49,078 nucleotides of DNA from Apilactobacillus ozensis DSM 23829 = JCM 17196 (GTDB taxonomy: Bacteria > Bacillota > Bacilli > Lactobacillales > Lactobacillaceae), in NCBI RefSeq assembly GCF_001435995.1, contig NZ_AYYQ01000036.1, positions 1-49,078 on the forward strand, in the 5' to 3' direction. How positions within the stretch are numbered: position 1 is the stretch's first letter; each line of letters opens with the position of its first letter. Positions 2,720 to 39,165 of the stretch are shown here, piece by piece. The notes below the pieces were generated by a model. The model searched no databases, was not told the origin of the DNA, and saw only the letters and a list, made by a program, of their open reading frames with translations. The position numbers and the translations under genes are program-made.

Positions 2720-4057
2720 ATGAAAATTATTGTTATTGGATGTACCCATGCTGGTACTTTTGCAGTAAAACAAATTTTAAAAGAGCATCCAGATGCTGAA
2801 GTTACTGTTTATGAAAGAAATGACAACATCTCCTTCTTATCTTGCGGAATTGCTTTATATTTAGATGGAAAAGTTGCTGACCCTAAAGGGTTATTCTATT
2901 CAAATCCACAAGAGTTAAGCACGCTAGGTGCTAATGTTAAAATGTTACACAGTGTAGTTTCAATTGATAATAAAAATAAAAAAGTTGAAGTCAAAGATAT
3001 TAAAAAAGATAAAGTCTTTACAGATAGTTACGACAAGTTAGTTATGACCACCGGTTCACTACCTGTTTTGCCACCAATTAAAGGCGCCGATAATAAACGA
3101 GTTCATTTTTGTAAAAATTGGTATGATGCTCAAAAGTTATTTAAGATTGCTAAAGATAACAAACGTGTAGCTATTGTTGGTGGTGGTTATATTGGAGCAG
3201 AGTTAGTTGAAGCTTATTCTAACCATGGCCATGATGTTACTTTAATTGATACTAATGACCGTGTTATGCATAAGTACTTTGATAAATCCTTTACTGATAA
3301 AATTGAAGAGAGCTATTTGGAACATGGTGTAAAGCTTAATTTAGGTGAACGGGTGCAAAGCTTTACTGGTGATGATGAATTGACTATTACTACTAACAAA
3401 GGGAATACAGTTGTAGATATGGCCATTTTATGTGTAGGATTTAAGCCTAACACGGATTTACTCAAAGGGAAGGTAGATATGATGCCTAACGGTGCTATCA
3501 TTACTAATGAGTACATGCAAAGCTCTGATCCAGATATATTTGGAGCTGGTGACAGTGTTGCAGTTCACTATAATCCAACTAATACATCTGCTTATATTCC
3601 ATTAGCTACAAATGCCGTACGTCAAGGAATTTTAGTAGGTAATAATATCGAAAAACCAACTACAAAATATATGGGAACTCAGTCATCGTCTGGTTTAGAA
3701 CTATACGGTCATACAATTGTTTCGACTGGTTTAACCATGAAAATGGCAGAAGACGATAATGTGCGGGCACATCAAGTAGTTATTAAAGATAATTATCGTC
3801 CTGAATTTATGCCAACAACTGAAGAAGTATTAATGTCATTAGTATATGATCCAGATACGCGTCGTATACTAGGTGGAGCATTAATGAGTAAACATGACGT
3901 TTCACAATCTGCAAACGTTTTATCTGTATGTATTCAAAACAAAAACACAATTGACGATTTAGCTATGGTTGATATGCTATTCCAGCCAAACTTCGACCGT
4001 CCGTTTAATTATTTAAATATTTTGGCGCAAGCAGCTCAAGATAAAGAAAATAAATAA
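2720..4057 (+). CDS. nox: NADH oxidase, H2O-forming
   Basis: A 445-residue flavoprotein that reduces O2 to water with NADH, regenerating NAD+. The N-terminal FAD site is IVIGCTHAGT; the redox cysteine is C42 in FLSCGIAL; the NADH Rossmann motif is VGGGYIGAELVEA at about 153; the second FAD motif is FGAGDSVAVHYNPT. The C-terminal interface domain contains GGALMSKHDVSQSAN. The sequence closely follows the Lactobacillus Nox enzyme as I remember it. Start is ATG 2720 with AAAGGAG eight bases upstream; the in-frame codon at 2678 lies between promoter and ribosome site. In heterofermenters Nox lets O2 act as electron acceptor, and a Rex-like site covers its promoter. Confidence 0.95.
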   Translation: MKIIVIGCTHAGTFAVKQILKEHPDAEVTVYERNDNISFLSCGIALYLDGKVADPKGLFYSNPQELSTLGANVKMLHSVVSIDNKNKKVEVKDIKKDKVFTDSYDKLVMTTGSLPVLPPIKGADNKRVHFCKNWYDAQKLFKIAKDNKRVAIVGGGYIGAELVEAYSNHGHDVTLIDTNDRVMHKYFDKSFTDKIEESYLEHGVKLNLGERVQSFTGDDELTITTNKGNTVVDMAILCVGFKPNTDLLKGKVDMMPNGAIITNEYMQSSDPDIFGAGDSVAVHYNPTNTSAYIPLATNAVRQGILVGNNIEKPTTKYMGTQSSSGLELYGHTIVSTGLTMKMAEDDNVRAHQVVIKDNYRPEFMPTTEEVLMSLVYDPDTRRILGGALMSKHDVSQSANVLSVCIQNKNTIDDLAMVDMLFQPNFDRPFNYLNILAQAAQDKENK

Positions 4058-4062
4058 TTGTT

Positions 4063-4090
4063 AAAAGAACTCTTAAACGAGTTCTTTTTT
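4063..4090 (+). terminator. Terminator after nox
   Basis: Stem AAAAGAACTC / GAGTTCTTTT (4063-4072 with 4079-4088), six-base loop and a T run, right after the nox stop. Confidence 0.85.
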
Positions 4091-4138
4091 ATTTAGTTAA
4101 AATGTCATTTGTTACTTTAACAAAATAAAAAATAAATA

Positions 4139-4167
4139 AAAAAATAGCATGACTCATTTCATGCTAT
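4139..4167 (-). terminator. Terminator of the 76-residue protein gene
   Basis: On the minus strand ATAGCATGA pairs with TCATGCTAT around a six-base loop and is followed by a long T run. Confidence 0.8.
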
Positions 4168-4177
4168 TCGTCAATGC

Positions 4178-4408
4178 TCAGAATTTTCTTTCGATTTTAT
4201 ATGCTTTTGCTTTATCTTTGTCACTGTCTCCTAATTGATCGCGCATCTCAAATAAAAAGTGTTCATTATTATTATGATCTTTAACCATTACCAAAGTATC
4301 TTTTTGTTGACGCTTATCTGCAGTAATTTGTGCGGTACGAATAATATCATTTGGATTTATATCTGAAACAATTGCATTACCTGGATTAAATAAAATATCT
4401 TCATTCAT
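4178..4408 (-). CDS. Hypothetical small soluble protein (76 residues)
   Basis: A hydrophilic, charged 76-residue protein with no signal peptide or membrane span. The first half contains NPGNAIVSDINPND; the second half is rich in K, D and R (MRDQLGDSDKDKAKAY). The ATG start at 4408 has a very strong AGGGGGG site nine bases upstream and the gene ends in its own terminator, so it is probably a real monocistronic gene. I do not recognise the family. It stands between nox and the recombinase repeat region. Confidence 0.65.
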   Translation of the reverse strand: MNEDILFNPGNAIVSDINPNDIIRTAQITADKRQQKDTLVMVKDHNNNEHFLFEMRDQLGDSDKDKAKAYKIERKF

Positions 4409-5467: not shown

Positions 5468-6913
5468 ATGTCTGATAAGTTAACTACTAACGAAGGACAA
5501 CCATGGGCTGACAATAATCACTCACTAACTGCTGGCAATCGTGGTCCTGTACTTATGCAAGATTATCAACTAATTGAAAAGCTTGCTCAATTTAACCGTG
5601 AACGTATTCCTGAAAGAGTTGTACATGCTAAAGGTGCTGGTGCTAAAGGTATTTTTACATTAACTCATGATATGAGTAAGTATACCAAGGCTGACATTTT
5701 CAACGGTAATAATAAAAAAACGGATATGATTGTTCGTTTTTCAGAAGTTGCTGGAGAATTAGGATACCCTGATACTTTACGTGATGTCCGTGGATTTGCC
5801 TTGAAATTTTACACTAATGAAGGTAATTATGATATTGTTGGTAACAATACTCCTATTTTCTTTATTAATGATCCGCTAAAATTTCCTGACTTTATTCATT
5901 CGCAAAAACGCGAACCTGATTCACACTTACGTTCTCAAGATATGCAATGGGATTTCTGGGCTCATTCTCCTGAATCTGTACATCAAGTTACTTACTTAAT
6001 GGGTGACCGTGGTAATCCAGCTAGCTATGCCAATATGAATGGCTATGGTTCACATACATTTAAGTGGGTTAATGAAAAAGGCGAACAATTTTGGGTTAAA
6101 TACCACTTCATCTCAGAACAAGGCGTCAAAAATATGACTGAAGAACAAGCTACAAAGACTGCTTCATCTAACCCTGATTATTTAATCCAAGACTTGTATG
6201 ATCGCATTAAACAAGGCGATTTCCCCAAATGGAAAGTTTGTGTGCAAATAATTCCATTTAAAGATGGATTAAACTATAAAGATGATATTTTTGATGTAAC
6301 TAAGACAGTATCTCATAAGGATTATCCTTTGCAAGAGGTTGGAGAGTTTGTTTTAAATCAAAATCCTGATAACTATTTTGATGATGTTGAAGAAGCTGCT
6401 TTTTCGCCTGCAAACTTAGTTCCCGGTATTGAGGCTTCACCTGATAAATTGCTTCAAGGTCGCTTATTTGCTTATAAAGATGCTGAACGTTATCGTCTAG
6501 GTGCTAATTATGAGAAGCTACCCATTAATCGTCCTAAAAATAATGTCAAAAATTATTCTAGAGATGGTTTTATGTCCCAAGGTCAAGATGGTTCTGTAAA
6601 TTACGAACCAAATAGTCAAAATGGTCCTGTGGAAGACTCATCAGCTAAAACTGCCCCCTTTGATATTAGTGGAAATGCTGGCAACTATAACACTTACGCC
6701 AATGATTATTACTCTCAAGCGGGTGCTCTATATAATGTTTATTCAGAAGATGAAAAACAACGTTTAATTGAAACTATAAAAAGCACTTTAGGTTCAATTA
6801 ATAGTCATGAAAATAAGGTTTTAGAAACTAAACAATTTTATCAAGCAGACCACGACTACGGAACTAGAGTAGCAAAGGCTTTAAACTTAGATTTAAGTGA
6901 AATCACTAATTAG
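5468..6913 (+). CDS. katA: Haem catalase
   Basis: A 481-residue clade-3-size monofunctional catalase (2 H2O2 to O2 and water). The active site is complete: distal His53 in RVVHAKGAGAKG, Asn126 in IVGNNTPIFF, and proximal Tyr336 with Arg332 in GRLFAYKDAERYRLG. The usual N-terminal tag GQPWADNNHSLTAGNRGPVLM is present. Lactic acid bacteria normally cannot make haem, so activity would depend on haem taken from the environment (established for the group). Start ATG 5468 follows AAAGAAAGAAG; a TATAAT lies ~30 bases before. No PerR-type operator was recognised. A terminator follows. Confidence 0.96.
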   Translation: MSDKLTTNEGQPWADNNHSLTAGNRGPVLMQDYQLIEKLAQFNRERIPERVVHAKGAGAKGIFTLTHDMSKYTKADIFNGNNKKTDMIVRFSEVAGELGYPDTLRDVRGFALKFYTNEGNYDIVGNNTPIFFINDPLKFPDFIHSQKREPDSHLRSQDMQWDFWAHSPESVHQVTYLMGDRGNPASYANMNGYGSHTFKWVNEKGEQFWVKYHFISEQGVKNMTEEQATKTASSNPDYLIQDLYDRIKQGDFPKWKVCVQIIPFKDGLNYKDDIFDVTKTVSHKDYPLQEVGEFVLNQNPDNYFDDVEEAAFSPANLVPGIEASPDKLLQGRLFAYKDAERYRLGANYEKLPINRPKNNVKNYSRDGFMSQGQDGSVNYEPNSQNGPVEDSSAKTAPFDISGNAGNYNTYANDYYSQAGALYNVYSEDEKQRLIETIKSTLGSINSHENKVLETKQFYQADHDYGTRVAKALNLDLSEITN

Positions 6914-19579: not shown

Positions 19580-21229
19580 CTATTTAATGTAAGTGTATTT
19601 ATAGCTCCATTGTGTTCCGGCAGTATTATGAATAACACCTTCTACCTTTGGTTGTTTCAAGTAGTAAGTGTCATCTTGGAACAGTGGTGAAACCCCTTGT
19701 GTAAGATTTAGTTCCTTACTTGCGTTTACTAAATCTTGCCAACGCTTACCGGCATCATTAGAATCAACGTTTTCAGCTTTGTTAACTAAATCATTGTATT
19801 TCTTACTGTCATATTTACCATAGTTATAAGAAGTCCCACGTTGTGGAATTTGTAAGAAAGTAATTGGGTCATTAAAGTCACCACCCCAAGTGTCTAAACT
19901 GATGTCAAAATCGCCACTTTGTTCACGTTGACTAGCAATTTTAGATGGTACACTTGTAAGGTTTAAAGTTAAGCCAGACAAGTTACTTTCTAATTGTTCT
20001 TTCAAGTATTGAGTAGCTACAGTGGAATTAGCATTTTCATTACTAGTTAACAAGTTAAGTGATATATTTTTAACCCCTAATTCCTTTAATCCTTTGTTCC
20101 ATAATTGTTTAGCTAACTTAGGATTATAATCTAGTGTGTCTTTAACACCTTGTTGGTCAGCAAAATCTTTCCCTGTCTCAGGGTCACGAGCTAAACCTTT
20201 AGGTACAAAACCAGTAATTGGGTCTGATTTCAAATATAGTACCTTTTGTGATAACACTGAACGATTAATTGATAATGAAATAGCACGACGAATATTATCA
20301 TTATTGATAATAGCTTTCTTTTGAGCATCCTTATCATTAAAGTTGTATCTTAAATATGAAATCATTGAATATGAGTAATCTTTTAAGTTTGGATCATTTT
20401 GATAATTCTTTAATTGATCAGTTGCTAATGGAGTAATATCAATACTACCCTGGTTGTATAGGTTTAGGCTTGTTGCTGGGTTGCTAACTAAACTGTAATT
20501 AATCCGGTTTAATTTAACTACTTTTTTATCCCAGTATTGATTATTTTTAACATATGCCCATTTATCACCAGTTCCGTTCCAGTTAATCATCTTAAAAGGT
20601 CCAGAATAAACCATATATTTAGAATTAGTACCGTATTTATCACCGTATTTTTTAACCGCTGCTTCACTTTGTGGTCCAAATAAAGGATAAGCCATTAAAG
20701 TCTTAAAGTATGCGACTGGCTTAGTTAAATGAATTTTAACCGTATGTTTATCAACGGCTTCAATCCCTAATTTATCTGGATTCATCTTACCAGAACGAAT
20801 GGCATCCCCGTTTTTAACTGCATTGAATAAGTAAGCATATTGTGCTTTAGTGCTAGGGGTAACTGTTCGACGCCATGAGTATACAAAGTCGTTAGCGGTA
20901 ATTGGACTACCATCACTAAATTTGGCATCCCTTAATTTAAAAGTCCATGTTTTACCGTCTTTACTACTATAACCCTTAGTAGCTAAACCGGGGGTTATAC
21001 TACCTTTTTCACCCAAGCGATAAAAACTTTCATAAACGTTTCCGGTTGATCCATAGCCACCCGCTTTAGAAATATCAATAGTATCTAGCCTGGTACTGGC
21101 TGCTAAATTCAAAGTCTGTGTCTTAGCATCATTACTAGATTGACTATTATTTTTAGAACCACAAGCAGTTAAACCCACTCCTAAAGCAACTGCAACTGCT
21201 GATAAGCCTAATATATTACGTATCTTCAA
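19580..21229 (-). CDS. oppA: Oligopeptide-binding lipoprotein of an ABC transporter (OppA-like)
   Basis: 549 residues of the SBP_bac_5 family. The lipoprotein signal has lipobox LTAC with the modified cysteine at residue 23, followed by a Ser/Asn-rich linker. Conserved elements include LNLAASTRLDTIDISKAGG, TWTFKLRDAKFSDGSPITANDFVYSWRR and SINRSVLSQKVL. It captures peptides at the outer face of the membrane; no permease or ATPase gene is nearby, so it must use a transporter encoded elsewhere. The TTG start at 21229 has AGGAGTG seven bases upstream. It has its own promoter, a cysteine-rich leader ORF and a strong terminator in its 5' region, which points to control by amino-acid, likely cysteine, supply. 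Confidence 0.9.
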   Translation of the reverse strand: MKIRNILGLSAVAVALGVGLTACGSKNNSQSSNDAKTQTLNLAASTRLDTIDISKAGGYGSTGNVYESFYRLGEKGSITPGLATKGYSSKDGKTWTFKLRDAKFSDGSPITANDFVYSWRRTVTPSTKAQYAYLFNAVKNGDAIRSGKMNPDKLGIEAVDKHTVKIHLTKPVAYFKTLMAYPLFGPQSEAAVKKYGDKYGTNSKYMVYSGPFKMINWNGTGDKWAYVKNNQYWDKKVVKLNRINYSLVSNPATSLNLYNQGSIDITPLATDQLKNYQNDPNLKDYSYSMISYLRYNFNDKDAQKKAIINNDNIRRAISLSINRSVLSQKVLYLKSDPITGFVPKGLARDPETGKDFADQQGVKDTLDYNPKLAKQLWNKGLKELGVKNISLNLLTSNENANSTVATQYLKEQLESNLSGLTLNLTSVPSKIASQREQSGDFDISLDTWGGDFNDPITFLQIPQRGTSYNYGKYDSKKYNDLVNKAENVDSNDAGKRWQDLVNASKELNLTQGVSPLFQDDTYYLKQPKVEGVIHNTAGTQWSYKYTYIK

Positions 21230-21267: not shown

Positions 21268-21329
21268 TTAAAAAAGAGCCACCACTTTCAGACTAACGTA
21301 TCCGCTAGCTTGAAAGCAGTGACTCTTTT
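21268..21329 (-). promoter_or_regulatory. Attenuator terminator in the oppA leader
   Basis: On the minus strand AAAAGAGTCACTGCTTTCA (21311-21329) pairs with the 19-base arm at 21272-21290 throughout, with three G-U pairs, followed by a T run; the 20-base loop contains GCTAGC and ACGTTAG. It ends about 40 bases before the oppA start, after the leader ORF, where only an attenuator makes sense. Confidence 0.8.
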
Positions 21330-21370
21330 ATCATGAAATCTTCACAGATTAAATCATTGTCAAATTAATC

Positions 21371-21463
21371 TTATAAAGAATCGCACCTTAAAAGGGTTAC
21401 CACATTCGTGCTAACGTACATTTGACAACAACATTCGCATTGGTTAAACATAGTTTTCATCAT
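21371..21463 (-). CDS. Cysteine-rich leader peptide (30 residues) upstream of oppA
   Basis: A 30-codon ORF with ATG at 21461-21463 and a strong GGGAGGA site eight bases upstream. Five of 30 codons are cysteine, including codons 9 and 11-13 (C-E-C-C-C), very unusual in a proteome this poor in cysteine. The remaining residues show no bacteriocin-like leader or double-glycine motif. A promoter (21498-21526) lies ahead, and a terminator follows the ORF before oppA. The peptide itself may have no function; the ribosome's progress over the cysteine codons could set whether the terminator forms. The GTTAGC in codons 17-18 can pair with GCTAGC in the terminator loop, a possible antiterminator (inference). 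Confidence 0.7.
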   Translation of the reverse strand: MMKTMFNQCECCCQMYVSTNVVTLLRCDSL

Positions 21464-21497
21464 GTGATAATCCTCCCTCAACTAATTTAGTATCATA

Positions 21498-21526
21498 ACT
21501 ATAATTAATTTATTAATAAATGTCAA
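21498..21526 (-). promoter_or_regulatory. oppA promoter
   Basis: Minus-strand TTGACA (21521-21526), 17-bp spacer, TATAGT (21498-21503): a near-consensus sigma-A promoter. The start would be near 21491, giving ~28 bases before the leader ORF. Confidence 0.8.
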
Positions 21527-22877: not shown

Positions 22878-24278
22878 TTAACCGACTGAATCTTCCATCT
22901 GGTAATCAATCAAACGATTTAATTCAACTGCATATTCCATTGGCAATTGTTTGGAAAATGGTTCAATAAAGCCCATAATAATCATTTTAGTCGCTTCCGT
23001 TTCGGTTAGCCCACGACTCATCAAGTAATACAAGTCATCTTCTGAAATTTTAGAAACTTTTGCTTCATGCTCCAAAGTAGTATCACCATTTTGGATAATA
23101 TTAGTAGGAATAGTATCGCTTTTAGAATCATCGTCCATAATAATGGTGTCACATTCAATATGTGACTTAGAGCCTTCACTATTTGGACGCATTCTAATCT
23201 TTCCACGATAGTTACAAACCCCACCATTTTTACAAATAGATTTAGAAATCACATTTGAAGATGTAAACGGTGCATTGTGTCGCATGATGCAACCAGTATC
23301 TTGATAAATATGATTACTAGCAAACGCTATTGATAACATCATTCCAGTTGCATGCGGACCATTTAAATCCACACTAGGATACTTCATCGTAACTTTAGAA
23401 CCCAAATTGCCATCAACCCACTCCATTGTGGCATTTTCATCCGCTGAAGCGCGTTTAGTTTCTAGACTGTAAACATTATCAGACCAATTCTGAATCGTGG
23501 TATAACGTGCAAAGGCATCTTTTTTTACAAAGACTTCGACAATCGCCGCATGCAAACTATCTTCTGAATAATTAGGGGCCGTACATCCCTCGACATAGTT
23601 AACACTAGCCCCTGCTTCTACTACTAAAATTGTTCGTTCAAATTGTCCGGTACTTCCGTTATTAATTCTGAAAAAACTTTGAATAGGAATTTTACAATGA
23701 ACACCTTTTGGCACATATAAAAAAACGCCCCCAGACCAGACGGCTGTATTCAAAGCCGCAAATTTATTATTTTCTGGACCGATTAATTTACCAAAGTATT
23801 CTTTAATAAGCTCTGGATATTTTTGTAATGCAGTGTCCGTATCGCAAAAAATAATCCCTAACTTAGCATATTCTTGCTTTAAGCTAGCATATACAGCTTC
23901 AGATTCATATTGAGCCTCTGCGCCAGCTAGATACTTTCGTTCAGCTTCTGGAACTCCTAATTTTTCAAAAGTTTGTTTCATACTATCAGGGACATCTTCC
24001 CAATCACGTGCCACTTGATCTGTAGCCCGTTGAAAATAATTGATACTTGATAAATCTAATTTAGATAAATCTGGACCAAATTTGGGCATCGGTAACTTTT
24101 GATAAATTTTAAAAGCTTTCAAACGTAAATCTAGCATCCATTTAGGCTCATTTTTATGAGCTGAAATTTCACGCACAATTTTTTCATTTAAACCTTTCCC
24201 AGTTGAATATACTGGCTGATAACTATCTTTGAATCCATACTGATATTCGTCATTACTATTCAAAATGTCATCTTGCAT
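22878..24278 (-). CDS. sufB: Fe-S cluster assembly scaffold protein SufB
   Basis: About 466 residues. Typical SufB features include YGFKDSYQPVYSTGKGLNEKIV near the front, the central beta-helix, and the C-terminal SHIECDTIIMDDDSKSDTIPTN followed by LEHEAKVSKISEDDLYYLMSRGLTE. SufB forms the SufBC2D scaffold where 2Fe-2S/4Fe-4S clusters are built. ATG 24278 has GAAGGTG six bases upstream; this start sits inside the end of sufU (11-base overlap). Last gene of sufCDSUB, and followed by a terminator. Confidence 0.96.
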   Translation of the reverse strand: MQDDILNSNDEYQYGFKDSYQPVYSTGKGLNEKIVREISAHKNEPKWMLDLRLKAFKIYQKLPMPKFGPDLSKLDLSSINYFQRATDQVARDWEDVPDSMKQTFEKLGVPEAERKYLAGAEAQYESEAVYASLKQEYAKLGIIFCDTDTALQKYPELIKEYFGKLIGPENNKFAALNTAVWSGGVFLYVPKGVHCKIPIQSFFRINNGSTGQFERTILVVEAGASVNYVEGCTAPNYSEDSLHAAIVEVFVKKDAFARYTTIQNWSDNVYSLETKRASADENATMEWVDGNLGSKVTMKYPSVDLNGPHATGMMLSIAFASNHIYQDTGCIMRHNAPFTSSNVISKSICKNGGVCNYRGKIRMRPNSEGSKSHIECDTIIMDDDSKSDTIPTNIIQNGDTTLEHEAKVSKISEDDLYYLMSRGLTETEATKMIIMGFIEPFSKQLPMEYAVELNRLIDYQMEDSVG

Positions 24279-24708
24279 TGTTTTCACCTTCATTCAAAAC
24301 TTGATAAATGGCTTTCCAGGGTAACATCGCACACTTAATTCGTACTGGTAGTTTCACGACTGATTGTAGAGCTATCGCATCGCCTAAGTTTTCAATATCA
24401 TCAATATCTTTTTGCATCATCATTTGAGAAAATTGGTATTCTAAACGCTTAATTTCTGATATTGAACGGCCTAAACAAATTTTATCCATCATTGCGGTAG
24501 CCGCTTTGAAAATCACACAACCATCCGCTTGATAAGCAATTTTACATACTTTGTCATTCGATATTAATACACTTAAAGTTAATTCATCGCCACAAGTGGG
24601 ATTATTTAAACTAATTTGATAAGTGTTTAAACCACTTAGGAGCGAATTGTTATGTGCTTTAATGGCATAGTCCATAATTGTTCGTTGATAAATTTCATTA
24701 ATGTCCAT
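24268..24708 (-). CDS. sufU: SufU, zinc-dependent sulfur acceptor
   Basis: 146 residues of the Gram-positive SufU type. The Zn ligands are present as Cys39 and Asp41 (PTCGDEL), Cys64 (DGCVIFKAA) and Cys126 (RIKCAMLPW). SufU accepts persulfide sulfur from SufS by ligand swap and passes it to the SufBCD scaffold. It overlaps sufS by 11 bases and sufB by 11, so the three are tightly coupled. Slight changes from the common motif (VIFKAATAMM for ISxASAS) do not touch the ligands. Confidence 0.94.
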   Translation of the reverse strand: MDINEIYQRTIMDYAIKAHNNSLLSGLNTYQISLNNPTCGDELTLSVLISNDKVCKIAYQADGCVIFKAATAMMDKICLGRSISEIKRLEYQFSQMMMQKDIDDIENLGDAIALQSVVKLPVRIKCAMLPWKAIYQVLNEGENNAR

Positions 24709-25912
24709 AGGAATTAAAAAACTCCTTTGTTAAATTAATCGCTTCAATAAATCGATCAATTTCATTTTCAGTGTTATAAAAATAAGTGCTGGCCCGCACG
24801 GTTGAATTGGTATGTAAAGCCTTGATTAATGGTTCTGCACAATGATAACCGGCTCGCACCGCAATTCCACGTAAATCAAGAGCTGAGGCTACATCATGAG
24901 CATGAATACCATTAATATTGAAAGTTACAATTCCAGTATCACGAATGGTACTACCATATACAGTTACATCATCTAATTTGGATAAACGATTATAAATTTT
25001 TTGGCCCAGCATCTGACAGTGCTCTTGTACATTTTGCATTCCAACCGAATTTAAATATTCAATCGCAGCGCCTAAACCCAACACTCCCATCACATTAGGA
25101 GTACCTGCTTCAAGCCGAATGGGAATTTGCTGTTGCGTAAAATGTTCACGATCAACACTTAACACCATTTCGCCACCCACTGCTGGTGGTAAAATTTGTT
25201 CTAATAAATCTGGTTTACCATACAAAACTCCAACTCCAGTCGGTGCTAACATTTTATGCCCCGAAAAAACTAACCAATCTGGTTTCAGTTCACTAACATC
25301 AATAGGCATCTCGGGCGCCCATTGTGCTGCATCAATTAAAATTTGTGCATGGTGTTGATGCGCTAGCGTAGTTAATTGTTCAATTGGATTAAGTGTTCCT
25401 AAAACATTGGATACTGCAGCGACTGCCACTAATTTAGTGCTATCATTAATAACTTCAGCAGCTTGATTTATGTTTAATCGACCATCAGTTGTTATTTCAA
25501 TGTAGCGTAAATGCGCCTGCTTTTGTTTAGCAATTCGTTGCCAAGGCAATAAATTACTATGATGTTCACTAATTGCAACTACTATTTCATCACCAGCTTG
25601 AATCTGATTAATAAAGTAACCATTGGCAACTAAATTAATTCCATCAGTTGTACTATTAGTGAATACAATTGATTTATCATTTTGGGCTCCAATAAATTTA
25701 GCAACCGCATGTCGAACGTTTTCATAGGCATCGGTAGTCTTTTGAGCTGCCATATAATTACTACGGTGGACGTTAAAGCTATTATTTACATAATCATTAG
25801 TTAAACGGTCAATGACCATTTGTGGCTTTTGGGTAGTAGCCGCGTTATCTAAATAAATTAAATCGTTATCCTTAAAAAAGGGGAAATCATTGCGAATCTC
25901 ATCATTTAACAT
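24698..25912 (-). CDS. sufS: Cysteine desulfurase SufS
   Basis: 404 residues, PLP-dependent group II desulfurase that takes sulfur from L-cysteine as a persulfide. The PLP lysine is Lys220 in VFSGHKMLAPTGVG, preceded by His118 (SEHHSN), Asp184 and Gln187 (IDAAQ). The persulfide cysteine is Cys358 in RAGYHCAEPL. All key residues are present. It overlaps sufD by 11 bases and sufU by 11. Supplies sulfur for the Fe-S clusters needed by, among others, NrdG, which is encoded upstream in the same run. Confidence 0.96.
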   Translation of the reverse strand: MLNDEIRNDFPFFKDNDLIYLDNAATTQKPQMVIDRLTNDYVNNSFNVHRSNYMAAQKTTDAYENVRHAVAKFIGAQNDKSIVFTNSTTDGINLVANGYFINQIQAGDEIVVAISEHHSNLLPWQRIAKQKQAHLRYIEITTDGRLNINQAAEVINDSTKLVAVAAVSNVLGTLNPIEQLTTLAHQHHAQILIDAAQWAPEMPIDVSELKPDWLVFSGHKMLAPTGVGVLYGKPDLLEQILPPAVGGEMVLSVDREHFTQQQIPIRLEAGTPNVMGVLGLGAAIEYLNSVGMQNVQEHCQMLGQKIYNRLSKLDDVTVYGSTIRDTGIVTFNINGIHAHDVASALDLRGIAVRAGYHCAEPLIKALHTNSTVRASTYFYNTENEIDRFIEAINLTKEFFNSYGH

Positions 25913-27065
25913 TAAAACGCGCCTCCAATTTAGCTAACATTTGATGTCGCATTTGCTTGTTAGGAAAAGAATCGATTAATGGTAATAAAAAGCCGCGTGT
26001 TAATAACAACTTTGCTTGGCGTAGGGGAATTCCGCGACTATTAAGATAATACAATTGGTCAGCATTCACTTTCCCTACGCTAGCTGCATGTCCAGCCACT
26101 ACATCGTAATTATCAATTAGTAAAACCGGATCAACTTGACCTTGACTAGTGCTGTCTAAAGTTAACAAACGACTAGCTTGGTCGGAATAAGCCCCATAAC
26201 CAGTTTTTGAAATAACTCCATTAGTATGAAAATTAGTCTTAGCTTGATTAGCTACAATTCCACGTTCTTGAATTTCACCATGAGTGTTACGACCATTATT
26301 GACAATTTCAGCATTAATAGTTTGTTGTTGGCTATCAACACCTAAACTAATAACGTTTAGATAGCCTTCACTTTGTTCACCATCAAGGTTAAAACTACTA
26401 TCATAAAGTGTATTATTAGAATTAAAAATACCCACAAAGATTTTTAGTGAAGCATTGCGCGCAAGGTAAGCATTTAATACCCGATGATGATAATCACTGT
26501 TGGCGTTGCTATCATCAAAATATTTCACATGCGCATTATCACCTAGTAAAACCTCAACCATTAAACAATCTTTAGTATTTGAACTAGTCTTGTCGTTAAA
26601 AGTAAAGGTTACCTCTGCATTAGCCCCCACAATAATTAATAAATGTTTTTCAACCTGCTGATGATTAATTAATGTTGAAAGATTAACTGGTTCTTCACAC
26701 ACTACATTGGATGGTATAAAAATAAATGCTCCTGAATTTAAATAAGCTAAATGGCGTGCGTTTAAAGCATTCTCACGCCATGGAATGGCTTTTTCCATTA
26801 AATTTTCTTGGATAAAAGTGGGGTATTGTTGAGCAGCAGCTAATAAATCCATCATAATAACTCCACTCGCTTTTAAGCTGGTTGATGCTAAATTATCATA
26901 ATTAACGTTAGTAGCATTTAATTTAGGATTTGGAATTTGATATGGTCGTTGTTGAGCATTTAAAGGTAGCGATTGGTAAATTTCACTTGCTACCTGACGT
27001 TTTGCCATCAGCCAGGCGGGTTCACCATGACTTTTGGAAAATTGTTCAATTGTTAATTCGGTCAT
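25902..27065 (-). CDS. sufD: Fe-S cluster assembly protein SufD
   Basis: 387 residues, the SufB paralogue of the SufBC2D complex. Recognisable parts are GEPAWLMAKRQVASEIYQSLP at the front, the beta-helix core (VNYDNLAS...), and the C-terminal GHAASVGKVNADQLYYLNSRGIPLRQAKLLLTRGFL, which mirrors SufB. It begins one base into the sufC stop (TAATG junction) and overlaps sufS by 11 bases, so translation is coupled. Confidence 0.95.
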   Translation of the reverse strand: MTELTIEQFSKSHGEPAWLMAKRQVASEIYQSLPLNAQQRPYQIPNPKLNATNVNYDNLASTSLKASGVIMMDLLAAAQQYPTFIQENLMEKAIPWRENALNARHLAYLNSGAFIFIPSNVVCEEPVNLSTLINHQQVEKHLLIIVGANAEVTFTFNDKTSSNTKDCLMVEVLLGDNAHVKYFDDSNANSDYHHRVLNAYLARNASLKIFVGIFNSNNTLYDSSFNLDGEQSEGYLNVISLGVDSQQQTINAEIVNNGRNTHGEIQERGIVANQAKTNFHTNGVISKTGYGAYSDQASRLLTLDSTSQGQVDPVLLIDNYDVVAGHAASVGKVNADQLYYLNSRGIPLRQAKLLLTRGFLLPLIDSFPNKQMRHQMLAKLEARFNVK

Positions 27066-27838
27066 TATTCATCCACCAACTTAATGTCTAGGCCTAACTT
27101 GTCACGCAATTGTGCATAACCACCTTTTTCCAAGCTTTCAGCCAAATCCATCCCACCACTTGCCACAACTTTACCATCCATCATCACATGGACTACATCT
27201 GGTTTAACATACCTTAAGATACGATCATAGTGAGTAATTATCAAAGAACTAAAATGAGCACCACGCATCGTATTAATGCCCTTTGAAACCACTTTAAGGG
27301 CGTCAATATCTAATCCTGAATCAATTTCATCCAGAATCGCTAACTGTGGTTTAATCATCATCATTTGTAGAATTTCGTTTCGTTTTTTTTCACCACCAGA
27401 AAAACCTTCGTTCAAGTAGCGACTGGTGCAATCAGATTTAATATCCAATACATCCATATCATGTTCTAAAGACTTCATAAATTCTAAGACACTTGGTTGT
27501 TCATCATTTGGTCGCATAGCATTTACAGCTGCGCGGATAAAGTCAGCATTTTTAATCCCAGGAATTTCAGTTGGATACTGCATTGCTAAAAATATTCCTA
27601 AACGAGCACGTTCATCAGTTGATAGTTCAGCTAAATCAGTCCCATTAAATTTAATCTGACCTTGTGTAATTTCATATTTATTAGAATTCATAATAGTTTG
27701 TGATAAAGTTGATTTACCCGTTCCGTTCGGTCCCATAATAACGTGAATCTCACCATCTGGGATTACTAAATTTAAACCCTTAACAACTTCTTGATTAGTT
27801 TCAATTATTTTTACATGTAAATTTGTAATTTTAAGCAA
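27065..27838 (-). CDS. sufC: Fe-S cluster assembly ATPase SufC
   Basis: 257 residues, an ABC-type ATPase that drives conformational change in SufBC2D. Walker A is GPNGTGKSTLSQ, signature NEGFSGGEKKRNEILQMM, Walker B LAILDEIDSGLDIDAL, and the switch His in LIITHYDRIL, all typical of SufC. The start is TTG 27838 with AGGAGG eight bases upstream. Only 18 bases, with no hairpin, separate it from the nrdG stop, so suf genes appear to be read from the same message as nrdDG. Confidence 0.96.
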   Translation of the reverse strand: MLKITNLHVKIIETNQEVVKGLNLVIPDGEIHVIMGPNGTGKSTLSQTIMNSNKYEITQGQIKFNGTDLAELSTDERARLGIFLAMQYPTEIPGIKNADFIRAAVNAMRPNDEQPSVLEFMKSLEHDMDVLDIKSDCTSRYLNEGFSGGEKKRNEILQMMMIKPQLAILDEIDSGLDIDALKVVSKGINTMRGAHFSSLIITHYDRILRYVKPDVVHVMMDGKVVASGGMDLAESLEKGGYAQLRDKLGLDIKLVDE

Positions 27839-36769: not shown

Positions 36770-36811
36770 AAAACTTTAAGTCTAACAAATGTTAGATCTT
36801 AAAGCTTTTTT
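36770..36811. terminator. Bidirectional terminator, alpha-glucosidase / crtM
   Basis: AACTTTAAG-T-CTAAC and GTTAG-AT-CTTAAAG form a long, slightly interrupted stem, with A and T runs outside. Confidence 0.8.
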
Positions 36812-37664
36812 AGTCTAATATTGAATTTTTTAGGTATAAGATTAATTTACTAGTCTTATTAACATACACGCGACTATCTAAAACGTCATATTTTTGCTTA
36901 ATAATATTAGTTAAAATTTTATGATATCCATCAACTGCTAACCCAACTGCCACCTTAGCATTTCGATTATCAATTGACTTAAGAACAACTTTTTTATCAC
37001 TATATAAGTTATTAGCATAGTCAGCTAAATATTTTAAAAGCGATTTTAAGTTATCACTAGCATGGTCTCTTATCAAATCCTTACGTTCAACATGAAAAGT
37101 TTCCATTAATTTTTGTGGCAAATACAACCTACCTGCTAGGGCATCTTCTTTAACATCGCGAATAATATTAGTAATTTGCATAGCAATTCCAATATTATTA
37201 ATATGACTATAAATACCACTGACATCATGATTAGTTAAAATCGGCATAATTAATTGACCTACAGTGCCAGCAACTTGATAACTATAGTGTTTTAAATCAT
37301 TCATGTCTTTAATTTTAACCCCGTATAAATCAGCCTTTTGCCCCGCAATCATCTGATTCATTTCATAAAATGACAAATTAAAAACATCAAAAACATTCCA
37401 TAGATTCCGACCGAGCTGATTTTCAGGAGAATTAGCTTTTATATTATCCCATGCATTTAGCATTTGATTAAAACGAGCTGCTTGACGATTGTCAGCACAG
37501 TCATCTAGTTCTCTTAAAAAATGATATAAAACAAAAATACTATTAGCACGATAATCAGGCAATTTTGAAAAAGCATAGTAAAAAGTTGTGGAATTTGCTT
37601 TAATAACTTTTTTGCTTTCTTCCATCCCGTCAGTGTATTTGTAGATTTTTTCGGCTTTATTCAT
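36810..37664 (-). CDS. crtM: 4,4'-diapophytoene synthase
   Basis: 284 residues of the squalene/phytoene synthase family. The two Asp-rich motifs are D54-D-C-A-D58 and D170-V-K-E-D174 in NIIRDVKEDALAGRLYLP. It joins two farnesyl-diphosphate units head to head into the C30 chain 4,4'-diapophytoene. Paired with crtN, it gives yellow diaponeurosporene-type pigments, known in some lactobacilli and in staphylococci and linked to oxidative-stress tolerance. The ATG overlaps the end of crtN by eight bases, so translation is coupled. Confidence 0.93.
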   Translation of the reverse strand: MNKAEKIYKYTDGMEESKKVIKANSTTFYYAFSKLPDYRANSIFVLYHFLRELDDCADNRQAARFNQMLNAWDNIKANSPENQLGRNLWNVFDVFNLSFYEMNQMIAGQKADLYGVKIKDMNDLKHYSYQVAGTVGQLIMPILTNHDVSGIYSHINNIGIAMQITNIIRDVKEDALAGRLYLPQKLMETFHVERKDLIRDHASDNLKSLLKYLADYANNLYSDKKVVLKSIDNRNAKVAVGLAVDGYHKILTNIIKQKYDVLDSRVYVNKTSKLILYLKNSILD

Positions 37665-39165
37665 GCGCTTTCAAATCCTTTTTTAACTCATTGGCTGTTA
37701 AATATCCACTAGTTACAACAATTGGCACACCTGCTCCAGGATGAGTGCTGGCGCCAGTGAAGTAAAGGTTTTTAATTTTACCAGCCTTGTTATGTGGTCT
37801 AAAATAGTTACTTTGCATCAAAGTTGGTTTCAAGCCAAAAGCAGTCCCAAATTTACTATTATACCTATTTTCAAAGGTACGTGGTGTAAAGCGACATTTA
37901 GTAACAATGTGACGACCTAAGTCTTGCAACCCTAACTCATTTTGTACTTTATTAATAATAAACTCTTCAAAGTTATCACTGTTGTAATCATCCCATTTAT
38001 CATATTTTTGCAAATTCGATACTGGTACTAATATATACAGTGATGATTGGCCTTTGGGAGCGAATGAATCGTCTAAAACACTAGGATTATAAATATAATA
38101 AGATGGATCAGTTGGTAGCTTCCCATTATCAATTTCCGCTACGTTTTTACTAAAGTCGTGAGCCATTCTGATAGTATGCAATCTCAAATCATCGTACTTT
38201 TTATCCACTCCCAGATATAGCATAAAACAAGACATCGAATAATCCATATTGTCGACTTTAGTCTTAGTGTACTTAGCTTTATATTTTTCTGGAACATCTA
38301 ATAAATCATTCATTACATATGGAAAATCAGCGTTAGCAACTACTCCATCAAATTGATGTTTTGTTCCATTAATTACAACGCCTTGGGCCTCACGTTTAGC
38401 ATTAACTATAATTTGACTGACCGGACTATCGTACTCAACGTGACCACCTAATTCTAGATAACGTTTTAATAATGCCGTTGCATATGATGACATGCCACCC
38501 TGAATAAACCAAACTCCATACAATAGCTCAATCATTGGAATAATGTTGTAGATGGAAGGACCATTGAATGGTGATATTCCTATGTACAAAGTTTGAAAAG
38601 ATAGCAAATACTGTAAGTTAGTATTTGAAATGTACTTTTGAATTGCACCATATGAAGAAGAGAATGTTTTCAATTTATAAGCTTGCCATAATGTCTTAGG
38701 ATTGAAAAAATCCTTAGGTGAACGAAAACTCTTATAAATAAAATTATCTTTAGCATTTAAGTATTTTTCATAAATATCAGTTAAATACTTCAAAAAACCT
38801 AACATTTGCGATTCATCGACACTTTCAAACTCATTTGTTAAGTCGACTAAATCCGTAGATAGCGGAATCGTTTGATTACCAGTCCTAATATCCATGAATG
38901 GATTGACACGTTGCATCGTAAAATAATCGCGTGGATTAACGCCGGTATCTTTAAATGGTTGATCATAAACGTGGGGCATCATGACAATCGTGGGTCCTGT
39001 ATCGAACTTAAAACCATCTTTTTCAATTAAATCCATTTTGCCACCGGCATGATGATTTTTTTCAAAAATTGTAACTTGGTATCCAGCATGTTGTAAGTAA
39101 ATTGCTGTGGTCAAACCACCAATTCCAGCACCAACTATAGCTATGTTCTTTTTAATTATGATCAC
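37657..39165 (-). CDS. crtN: 4,4'-diapophytoene desaturase
   Basis: About 499-502 residues of the phytoene-desaturase family. FAD site NIAIVGAGIGGLTTAIYLQHAGYQVTIFEKN; then HHAGGKMDLIEKDGFKFDTGPTIVMMP; the C-terminal FAD motif NLYFTGASTHPGAGVPIVVTSG. It desaturates diapophytoene to diaponeurosporene. The GTG at 39165 lies inside an extended Shine-Dalgarno (AAGGTGATC); the ATT at 39154-39156 (then AAA AAG AAC) sits at the correct spacing and gives the standard KKN start, so ATT is the likelier initiation codon. Only crtM follows, with no aldehyde- or glycosyl-modifying crt genes, so a simple C30 carotenoid is expected. Confidence 0.93.
   Translation of the reverse strand: MIIIKKNIAIVGAGIGGLTTAIYLQHAGYQVTIFEKNHHAGGKMDLIEKDGFKFDTGPTIVMMPHVYDQPFKDTGVNPRDYFTMQRVNPFMDIRTGNQTIPLSTDLVDLTNEFESVDESQMLGFLKYLTDIYEKYLNAKDNFIYKSFRSPKDFFNPKTLWQAYKLKTFSSSYGAIQKYISNTNLQYLLSFQTLYIGISPFNGPSIYNIIPMIELLYGVWFIQGGMSSYATALLKRYLELGGHVEYDSPVSQIIVNAKREAQGVVINGTKHQFDGVVANADFPYVMNDLLDVPEKYKAKYTKTKVDNMDYSMSCFMLYLGVDKKYDDLRLHTIRMAHDFSKNVAEIDNGKLPTDPSYYIYNPSVLDDSFAPKGQSSLYILVPVSNLQKYDKWDDYNSDNFEEFIINKVQNELGLQDLGRHIVTKCRFTPRTFENRYNSKFGTAFGLKPTLMQSNYFRPHNKAGKIKNLYFTGASTHPGAGVPIVVTSGYLTANELKKDLKAHE

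Follow-up and report, generated by a model that had tools for sequence, protein, structure and literature searches.

Attenuators of the trp and his type are built from mutually exclusive RNA segments, with the control codons lying just before the antiterminator strand, and T-boxes bind tRNA directly and need no open reading frame (ORF). T-boxes are the usual explanation for amino acid control in Firmicutes. Leaderless polycysteine ORFs of mycobacteria were reportedly the subject of an experimental study by Canestrari et al. in 2020. Before cysS of Rhodobacterales, the short ORF uORFC-8-2 carries tandem Cys codons, and attenuation dependent on tRNA-Cys is proposed for it in the accessible part of its description (PMC8632094). 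Polycysteine leader ORFs have also been predicted before cys operons in Actinobacteria, without a conserved terminator hairpin as far as the available sections of that paper go (PMC1262725), and the available text on the mycobacterial polycysteine leaders describes them as translation attenuation (PMC13236596). Histidine leader peptides are described in Firmicutes, and the accessible part of that article holds nothing on cysteine leaders or opp (PMC2965389). No cysteine leader in lactobacilli was recognizable by title or beginning of the abstract among the matches listed in our literature search, subscription papers being mostly outside its scope.

Here we describe the region upstream of an oppA gene in Apilactobacillus ozensis DSM 23829, within a stretch of 49,078 nucleotides (contig NZ_AYYQ01000036.1), referred to below as the window. 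We propose that a ribosome-mediated, cysteine-responsive transcription attenuator controls this gene, which encodes a peptide-binding lipoprotein, and we put the probability of this reading at roughly 0.85, there being no expression, ribosome-profiling or term-seq data. The parts of the proposed attenuator, their conservation and their mutually exclusive pairings are established by sequence and computation.

Layout of the oppA leader

A preliminary description of the locus had placed a near-consensus promoter, a ribosome site, a 30-codon ORF with five Cys codons and a terminator, in this order, before oppA, and all of these were confirmed (Table 1). The Cys codons of the leader ORF are codons 9, 11, 12, 13 and 27. 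The promoter is the best-scoring of 22 promoter-like sites in the 5 kb scanned, a number that shows no excess over shuffled sequence (23.2). A simple terminator scan misses the terminator, which is revealed by folding. The hexamers GTTAGC (21415-21410) and GCTAGC (21309-21304) and the local hairpin had been located correctly; the pairing proposed between the two hexamers stands, but it is merely the tip of a longer complementarity, that of segments B and C.

Table 1 Features of the oppA leader region in the window (positions given in the direction of the minus strand)
Feature	Position	Strand	Basis or remark
Promoter, sigma-70-type, TTGACA-17-TATAGT	21526-21498	minus	11/12 consensus positions; TTGAC kept in genus alignment
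Segment A, includes ribosome site of leader ORF; possible partner of B	21479-21462	minus	fold and family-wide A:B test
Leader ribosome site GGGAGGA	21477-21471	minus	
Leader ORF MMKTMFNQCECCCQMYVSTNVVTLLRCDSL, ATG at 21463, 30 codons and TAA	21463-21371	minus	
Control codons Cys-Glu-Cys-Cys-Cys (codons 9-13)	21439-21425	minus	
Cys-codon helix, 5' side TTGTCAAAT	21428-21420	minus	RNAalifold
Segment B CGTTAGCACGAATGTGGTAACCCTTTT, antiterminator strand, within leader ORF	21416-21390	minus	B:C fold
Local hairpin GTTAGCAC-GAAT-GTGGTAAC inside B, alternative to B:C	21415-21396	minus	stalled full-length fold
Cys-codon helix, 3' side ATTTGACAA, complement of TTGTCAAAT	21365-21357	minus	RNAalifold
Segment C, 5' arm of terminator, alternative partner of B	21329-21303	minus	folds and alignment
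Intrinsic terminator with T run	21329-21270	minus	-36.3 kcal/mol, z -8.6
oppA, peptide-binding lipoprotein (SBP_bac_5), start TTG at 21229	21229-19580	minus	PF00496, 7e-80

The leader region lies between oppA and an Nramp gene upstream on the same strand. Downstream of oppA a terminator-like site is present (19571-19537), and the gene thus seems to form a separate unit. On the minus strand at 22878-27838, ORFs reading as sufC, D, S, U and B come first, then Nramp, the cysteine leader and oppA; sufB was identified by Pfam and the other four were assigned by likeness only. In L. salivarius (L016), an oppA with a CCC...CC leader is found directly before sufC and sufD. A general link between oppA and suf was dropped, being confined to the window and L. 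salivarius among the loci examined. Elsewhere in the window, a squalene/phytoene synthase gene adjoins one for a flavin amine oxidoreductase (36810-39165, minus strand), perhaps a carotenoid pair, and an ORF on the plus strand (5468-6913) resembles a heme catalase gene.

Conservation of the Cys codons and a possible sulfur amino acid theme

A search of 397 Lactobacillaceae genomes with the OppA protein gave matches at E<=1e-130 in 164 genomes from 18 of 40 genera, and 150 upstream regions from 17 genera, among the matches listed, were examined; in an order-level sample of 246 genomes, all ten genomes with a match at E<=1e-150 belonged to Lactobacillaceae. A fixed rule was applied to about 430 nt of upstream DNA, namely an upstream ORF (uORF) of 8-60 codons, a ribosome site of at least four bases and at least three Cys per 12 codons. 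Less upstream DNA was available for two of the 150 regions (L105 and L106) and for one control (L210). In L105, at a contig end upstream of a Ligilactobacillus oppA, positions 582-651 match a group II intron in Rfam.

By this rule a Cys-cluster uORF with a ribosome site precedes oppA in 126 of the 150 regions among the matches listed, compared with 0/150 in antisense controls and 118/3000 in dinucleotide shuffles. Some of the 126 may be chance ORFs (e.g. L148 and L186), the shuffle rate being 3.9%, and one clear Cys leader (L118) is counted as a miss since its ribosome site failed the filter. The upstream regions of OppA paralogues contained no Cys uORF (0/31), and in a set of named genomes, whose species partly overlap the main set, it was present at 24/28 orthologues vs. 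0/52 paralogues. Among the matches listed, the leader occurs in 13 of the 17 genera: Levilactobacillus (24/24), Lactiplantibacillus (21/21), Lentilactobacillus (17/18), Ligilactobacillus (10/13), Apilactobacillus (11/11), Pediococcus (10/10), Lactobacillus (8/8), Lapidilactobacillus (8/8), Secundilactobacillus (6/7), Furfurilactobacillus (5/5), Lacticaseibacillus (4/6), g13 (1/1) and g32 (1/1). The fixed rule found none, again among the matches listed, in Liquorilactobacillus (0/11), g25 (0/4), g33 (0/1) and g9 (0/1), and outside Liquorilactobacillus and g25 nine more of the listed orthologues, L118 among them, fail the rule. A terminator between uORF and oppA was assigned by rule in 123 of the 126 leaders; the assignment is doubtful in at least one of them, L086, where it runs into the ORF. 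The preliminary description had suggested this comparison of oppA 5' regions and had accepted that absence of the Cys codons or hairpin in relatives would count against an attenuator; instead, Cys cluster and terminator are kept in 13 genera, and the paralogues examined have no Cys uORF. Among the orthologues examined, no other control was seen as often as the Cys leader before this OppA subfamily of Lactobacillaceae.

Between genera, the leader peptides seem unrelated (MCCSMCQAQVSADRGFF, ACCECNVSFCV, MMMCCPCCESNNMAICVELQAS, KQFCCCQNC and SCCCQTVVSTNVV). In all nine genera tested, Cys columns are on average more conserved than other columns, and in six of the nine little beyond Met1 and Cys is at least 95% conserved; the leaders of Apilactobacillus, Lactiplantibacillus and Furfurilactobacillus also conserve non-Cys residues. 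Both TGT and TGC are used at some well-conserved Cys columns in seven of the nine genera (Lactiplantibacillus, Lentilactobacillus, Pediococcus, Lactobacillus, Lapidilactobacillus, Furfurilactobacillus and Lacticaseibacillus), such mixing being absent in Apilactobacillus and restricted to a less conserved column in Levilactobacillus. The combination of conserved Cys columns and synonymous codons argues that the amino acid is kept, and not the RNA alone.

When all 20 amino acids were scored for clustering upstream of oppA, in a test that did not single out Cys, Cys ranked first (mean 3.35 vs. 0.70) and Met second (2.16 vs. 0.61); the rank is more telling than the size because regions without any uORF were scored zero. 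Relative to their own shuffles, which retain the TG and GT steps brought by Cys codons, the 126 leaders are enriched in Met (2.1-fold), Gln (1.8-fold), Cys (1.7-fold, with the top z of 17.2) and Asn (1.4-fold). The excess of Gln and Asn perhaps reflects an unstructured ORF start.

One alternative to codon reading is that the Cys-rich nascent peptide itself senses metal or redox state and arrests translation, with no part for tRNA-Cys. Metal binding by the CC, CCC and CxxC clusters is conceivable, and Nramp and suf genes stand beside oppA in the window. However, the number and spacing of the Cys residues vary between genera (CCC, CCPCC, CCECN, CCSMC) and the flanking residues are not common to them, so that codon reading suits the leaders better than a binding site does. 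Nor are suf neighbours general, since a survey of the 28 orthologue loci from named genomes, with up to 4 kb of flanking DNA per side, showed them only in L. salivarius, and we consider a peptide sensor improbable.

In Liquorilactobacillus, a T-box lies before oppA on the same strand in 10 of the 11 orthologues (L072, L076, L079, L088, L089, L097, L101, L103, L137 and L141), all of them without a Cys leader, and T-boxes also precede oppA in L167 (g33) and L191 (Lacticaseibacillus). These 12 T-boxes have E-values of 7e-12 or better, and ten of them may be missed by annotation pipelines because only two reach the Rfam curated threshold. All 12 share the specifier loop GAA-[GA]-AUG-[AG] and the T-box bulge UGGU. 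A UGGU bulge suits a tRNA with discriminator A. Judged from the sequence, the specifier is apparently AUG, which together with the bulge would point to tRNA-Met by the usual T-box rules; an assignment to Asp was rejected, AUG being the invariant triplet in every case. Two-Cys ORFs in three Liquorilactobacillus regions (L097, L137 and L141) were dropped because they lie inside T-boxes. A Met T-box on oligopeptide transport is listed for L. delbrueckii in the part of the relevant survey that is available (PMC3771891). At E<=0.01 no T-box was found in the leaders of 16 loci of the Cys-leader type, the window included. A T-box-like leader (L056, 3190-3426; 91.2 bits, E 8.5e-19) was observed just 3' of oppA in an Apilactobacillus genome, where it precedes an ORF at approximately 3571-4399.

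It could also be that the leader mainly reads the general supply of Met and Cys, or that it acts partly on the translation of oppA. Met codons are not only enriched but frequently stand directly 5' of the Cys cluster, e.g. MMMCCPCC in Lactiplantibacillus, and a T-box with an invariant AUG replaces the leader in Liquorilactobacillus. In Apilactobacillus leaders, however, Met occurs at its overall expectation (0.032 vs. 0.032), and the terminators favour transcription as the level of control; the chance that this version is the right one appears slim.

The Met enrichment of the leaders and the AUG T-box of one genus do suggest that the theme may be sulfur amino acids and not cysteine alone. A tentative extension of the cysteine attenuator, which we would not yet bet on, is a family-wide sulfur amino acid switch, with fast-changing Cys-reading leaders, some of them with Met codons, a Met T-box elsewhere, and OppA as a sulfur-peptide receptor. 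If true, OppA would be a dedicated receptor for e.g. glutathione or Cys/Met-rich fragments, and the sensor would change while the class of nutrient stays constant.

The window genome has no match to cysK/cysM (TIGR01136), while 14 of 14 control genomes do, and matches to cysE are found only below the cut-off. It is therefore doubtful that cysteine is made from serine by that route, and imported peptides are a plausible source of it. The absent cysK and the sub-cut-off cysE fit the suggestion that peptide uptake supplies cysteine, the substrate of OppA being unknown; a supply of cysteine by the transporter and charged tRNA-Cys as the in vivo signal are both inferences. The nearest relatives of OppA with solved structures are peptide binders, including PrgZ, a pheromone binder, and leave the substrate open.

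Alternative RNA structures and proposed mechanism

The leader DNA is present in 11 of 16 Apilactobacillus genomes (the window genome counted), always before this oppA, and the block of leader, terminator and oppA has differing upstream neighbour genes among related species. Four of the five genomes without the leader have no oppA of this kind at E<=1e-130, and the fifth (G009) contains nothing closer than a weaker relative (2e-140). The genus alignment keeps TTGAC, the ribosome site, CCC (invariant in the 11 leaders and encoded by TGT every time), a core GTTAGCAC-N4-GTGGTA and GCTAAC/GCTAGC of the terminator 5' arm. The 3' arm drifts (GTTGGC, GTTAAC, GTTAGC, GTTAAT, GTTATC), and the better conservation of the 5' arm suggests that it has a second partner, the GTTAGC of the leader. 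A search of the leader peptide against plasmids (tBLASTn) gave no match.

The fold of the whole leader, which contains the A:B pairing, has a z of -6.1; with such a fold, and recurring ahead of oppA orthologues from other species and genera, the arrangement is above chance. A strong fold of this kind, together with the conserved core, could also speak for a riboswitch for a small ligand to which the ORF is incidental. The RNA sequence is narrowly distributed, however, a sequence-only model (R1) run on the 397 family genomes being strong only in the 11 Apilactobacillus genomes and in a single genome from outside the genus, whereas the Cys codons are widespread; the remaining R1 matches (E of 2e-4 or weaker) were regarded as chance. 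As Rfam also gives nothing for the window at curated thresholds, nor for the window leader at E<=0.01, little credence is left for a riboswitch. That the terminator simply belongs to the Nramp gene, downstream of which it lies on the same strand, and that the ORF is unrelated and due to chance can hardly be upheld, for a promoter stands between Nramp and the terminator, the block recurs with other upstream neighbours, and in other genera too a Cys-cluster uORF is followed by a terminator, so that this reading is largely contradicted by conservation.

For the cysteine attenuator, the pairings themselves have to be considered. Segments B and C of the window form 23 pairs, and the fold of 21416-21303 reaches -35.6 kcal/mol (z -5.1), with none of 30 shuffles pairing equally well. 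Segment B starts 8 nt past the final Cys codon of the cluster, so that stalling there would leave B largely free, while a ribosome further along would cover it. The stalled state was modelled in 122 of the 123 leaders (L086 was excluded, its terminator overlapping the ORF): the RNA was masked as far as 14 nt beyond the first base of the middle Cys codon and then folded up to the end of the terminator 5' arm. The 5' arm then pairs upstream with a value of 0.63 vs. 0.46 in shuffles of equal length; 111 of the 122 leaders lie above their shuffles, as do the genus means in 13 of 13 genera, and 11 lie below the shuffle mean (L059, L087, L100, L104, L108, L110, L116, L134, L153, L161 and L184). The earlier suggestion that the position of the ribosome could choose between structures is thereby supported in silico, the predicted shift being in the expected direction. 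Setting the stalled state against a ribosome at the stop codon gave 119/122 in favour, but the shorter RNA of the latter state biases this comparison, and the shuffle comparison alone was used as evidence.

The pairing of A with B was evaluated in 121 leaders (L086 and L098 excluded), with 15.9 expected pairs vs. 8.7 in shuffles; 108 leaders are above the shuffle mean and 47 above all 20 shuffles. The positions of B common to A and C number 6.0 vs. 3.4 under shifting and are higher in 90 of the 121 leaders. In 13 of the 121, A:B is no better than the shuffle mean, and five Furfurilactobacillus leaders are without it. The window leader itself is weak in this family-wide test (4.2 expected pairs vs. 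2.9, with 5/20 shuffles as high). Going by these models, segment A can act as an anti-antiterminator, and its pairing with B would at the same time mask the ribosome site of the leader. The Wilcoxon statistics of both the stalled-state and the A:B tests ignore relatedness.

In an RNAalifold analysis of 11 sequences, the Cys-codon helix shows changes on both sides at five pairs, and several of its pairs are broken in two or three of the sequences; for the genus alignment RNAalifold returned a mixed structure with this helix and without B:C. Covariation in B:C among 12 near relatives is weak: paired cells amount to 79.3% vs. 78.5% in shuffles, pairs with changes on both sides to 5 vs. 4.4, and further pair types to 12 vs. 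15.0. Only the covariation score (6/500 shuffles) and the cells changed on both sides (28/500) stand out, and slid controls are lower on all five measures. Since the terminator wins in 13 of 13 full-length folds examined, the switch must be kinetic, with the choice made during transcription.

The proposed mechanism starts with transcription of the leader by RNA polymerase, whereby the short ORF with its cluster of Cys codons would become available to a ribosome. With ample cysteinyl-tRNA, the ribosome would reach the stop codon and cover B; C would then pair with its own 3' arm and transcription would end before oppA. Under a shortage of cysteinyl-tRNA, the ribosome is predicted to halt on the Cys codons immediately 5' of B, so that neither A nor the Cys-codon helix would hold B; B could then capture C, the terminator would be excluded, and oppA would be transcribed. 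In a leader without a ribosome, A may pair with B, again favouring termination. Translation of the ORF, stalling at the Cys codons, readthrough and import of cysteine-containing peptides by OppA are all inferred. Lactobacilli thus probably have a peptide-capture gene that is switched on when cysteine shortage blocks translation of its leader, in a layout found in 13 genera.

Comparison with known regulatory systems

In this family of bacteria from food and gut, the control most often found before one gene is a cysteine leader that is probably read by ribosomes, and its attenuator logic is kept although nearly all of the leader sequence turns over between genera. The leader suggests a function in the uptake of sulfur peptides for an OppA subfamily that has none assigned, and a way for lactobacilli that are possibly unable to make cysteine to tune peptide import.

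The T-boxes of Lactobacillales (RF00230) have in common with the Cys leader a tRNA-dependent control of termination and, in Liquorilactobacillus, the same oppA family; no T-box is present in the window leader, either at the curated threshold or at E<=0.01. With the mycobacterial polycysteine leaders, as far as the accessible descriptions go, the shared features are an ORF with a Cys run before sulfur genes and a response to cysteine; those leaders are, by the same partial accounts, leaderless ORFs before biosynthesis genes, in contrast to peptide uptake here. The window leader does not meet the definition of that group, as both a ribosome site and a terminator are present.

The uORFC-8-2 motif, from what is accessible of its description, likewise combines a short ORF with tandem Cys codons, a terminator and proposed ribosome-mediated attenuation. 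It differs, on the same partial basis, in phylum, in its gene (cysteinyl-tRNA synthetase), in having two Cys codons usually at positions 14-15 and in its RNA, and the available part of the source (PMC8632094) mentions no helix hiding the ribosome site of the leader. The window leader would not qualify as a uORFC-8-2 element, since it precedes oppA and not cysS and has C-E-C-C-C in place of two tandem Cys.

With the trp/his-type attenuators, the leader shares exclusive segments and control codons directly 5' of the antiterminator strand. Of the features expected of a trp-type system, an ORF with a ribosome site after a promoter is present and conserved (its translation being inferred), a cluster of codons for one amino acid is conserved as amino acid, and an intrinsic terminator precedes the structural gene, while an exclusive antiterminator freed by stalling is met in silico only. 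Unlike trp/his-type attenuators, segment A bears the leader's own ribosome site, and the target is a peptide-binding lipoprotein. The mechanism is therefore of a known kind, and its target, phylum, breadth and ribosome-site helix are, as far as we have seen, new.
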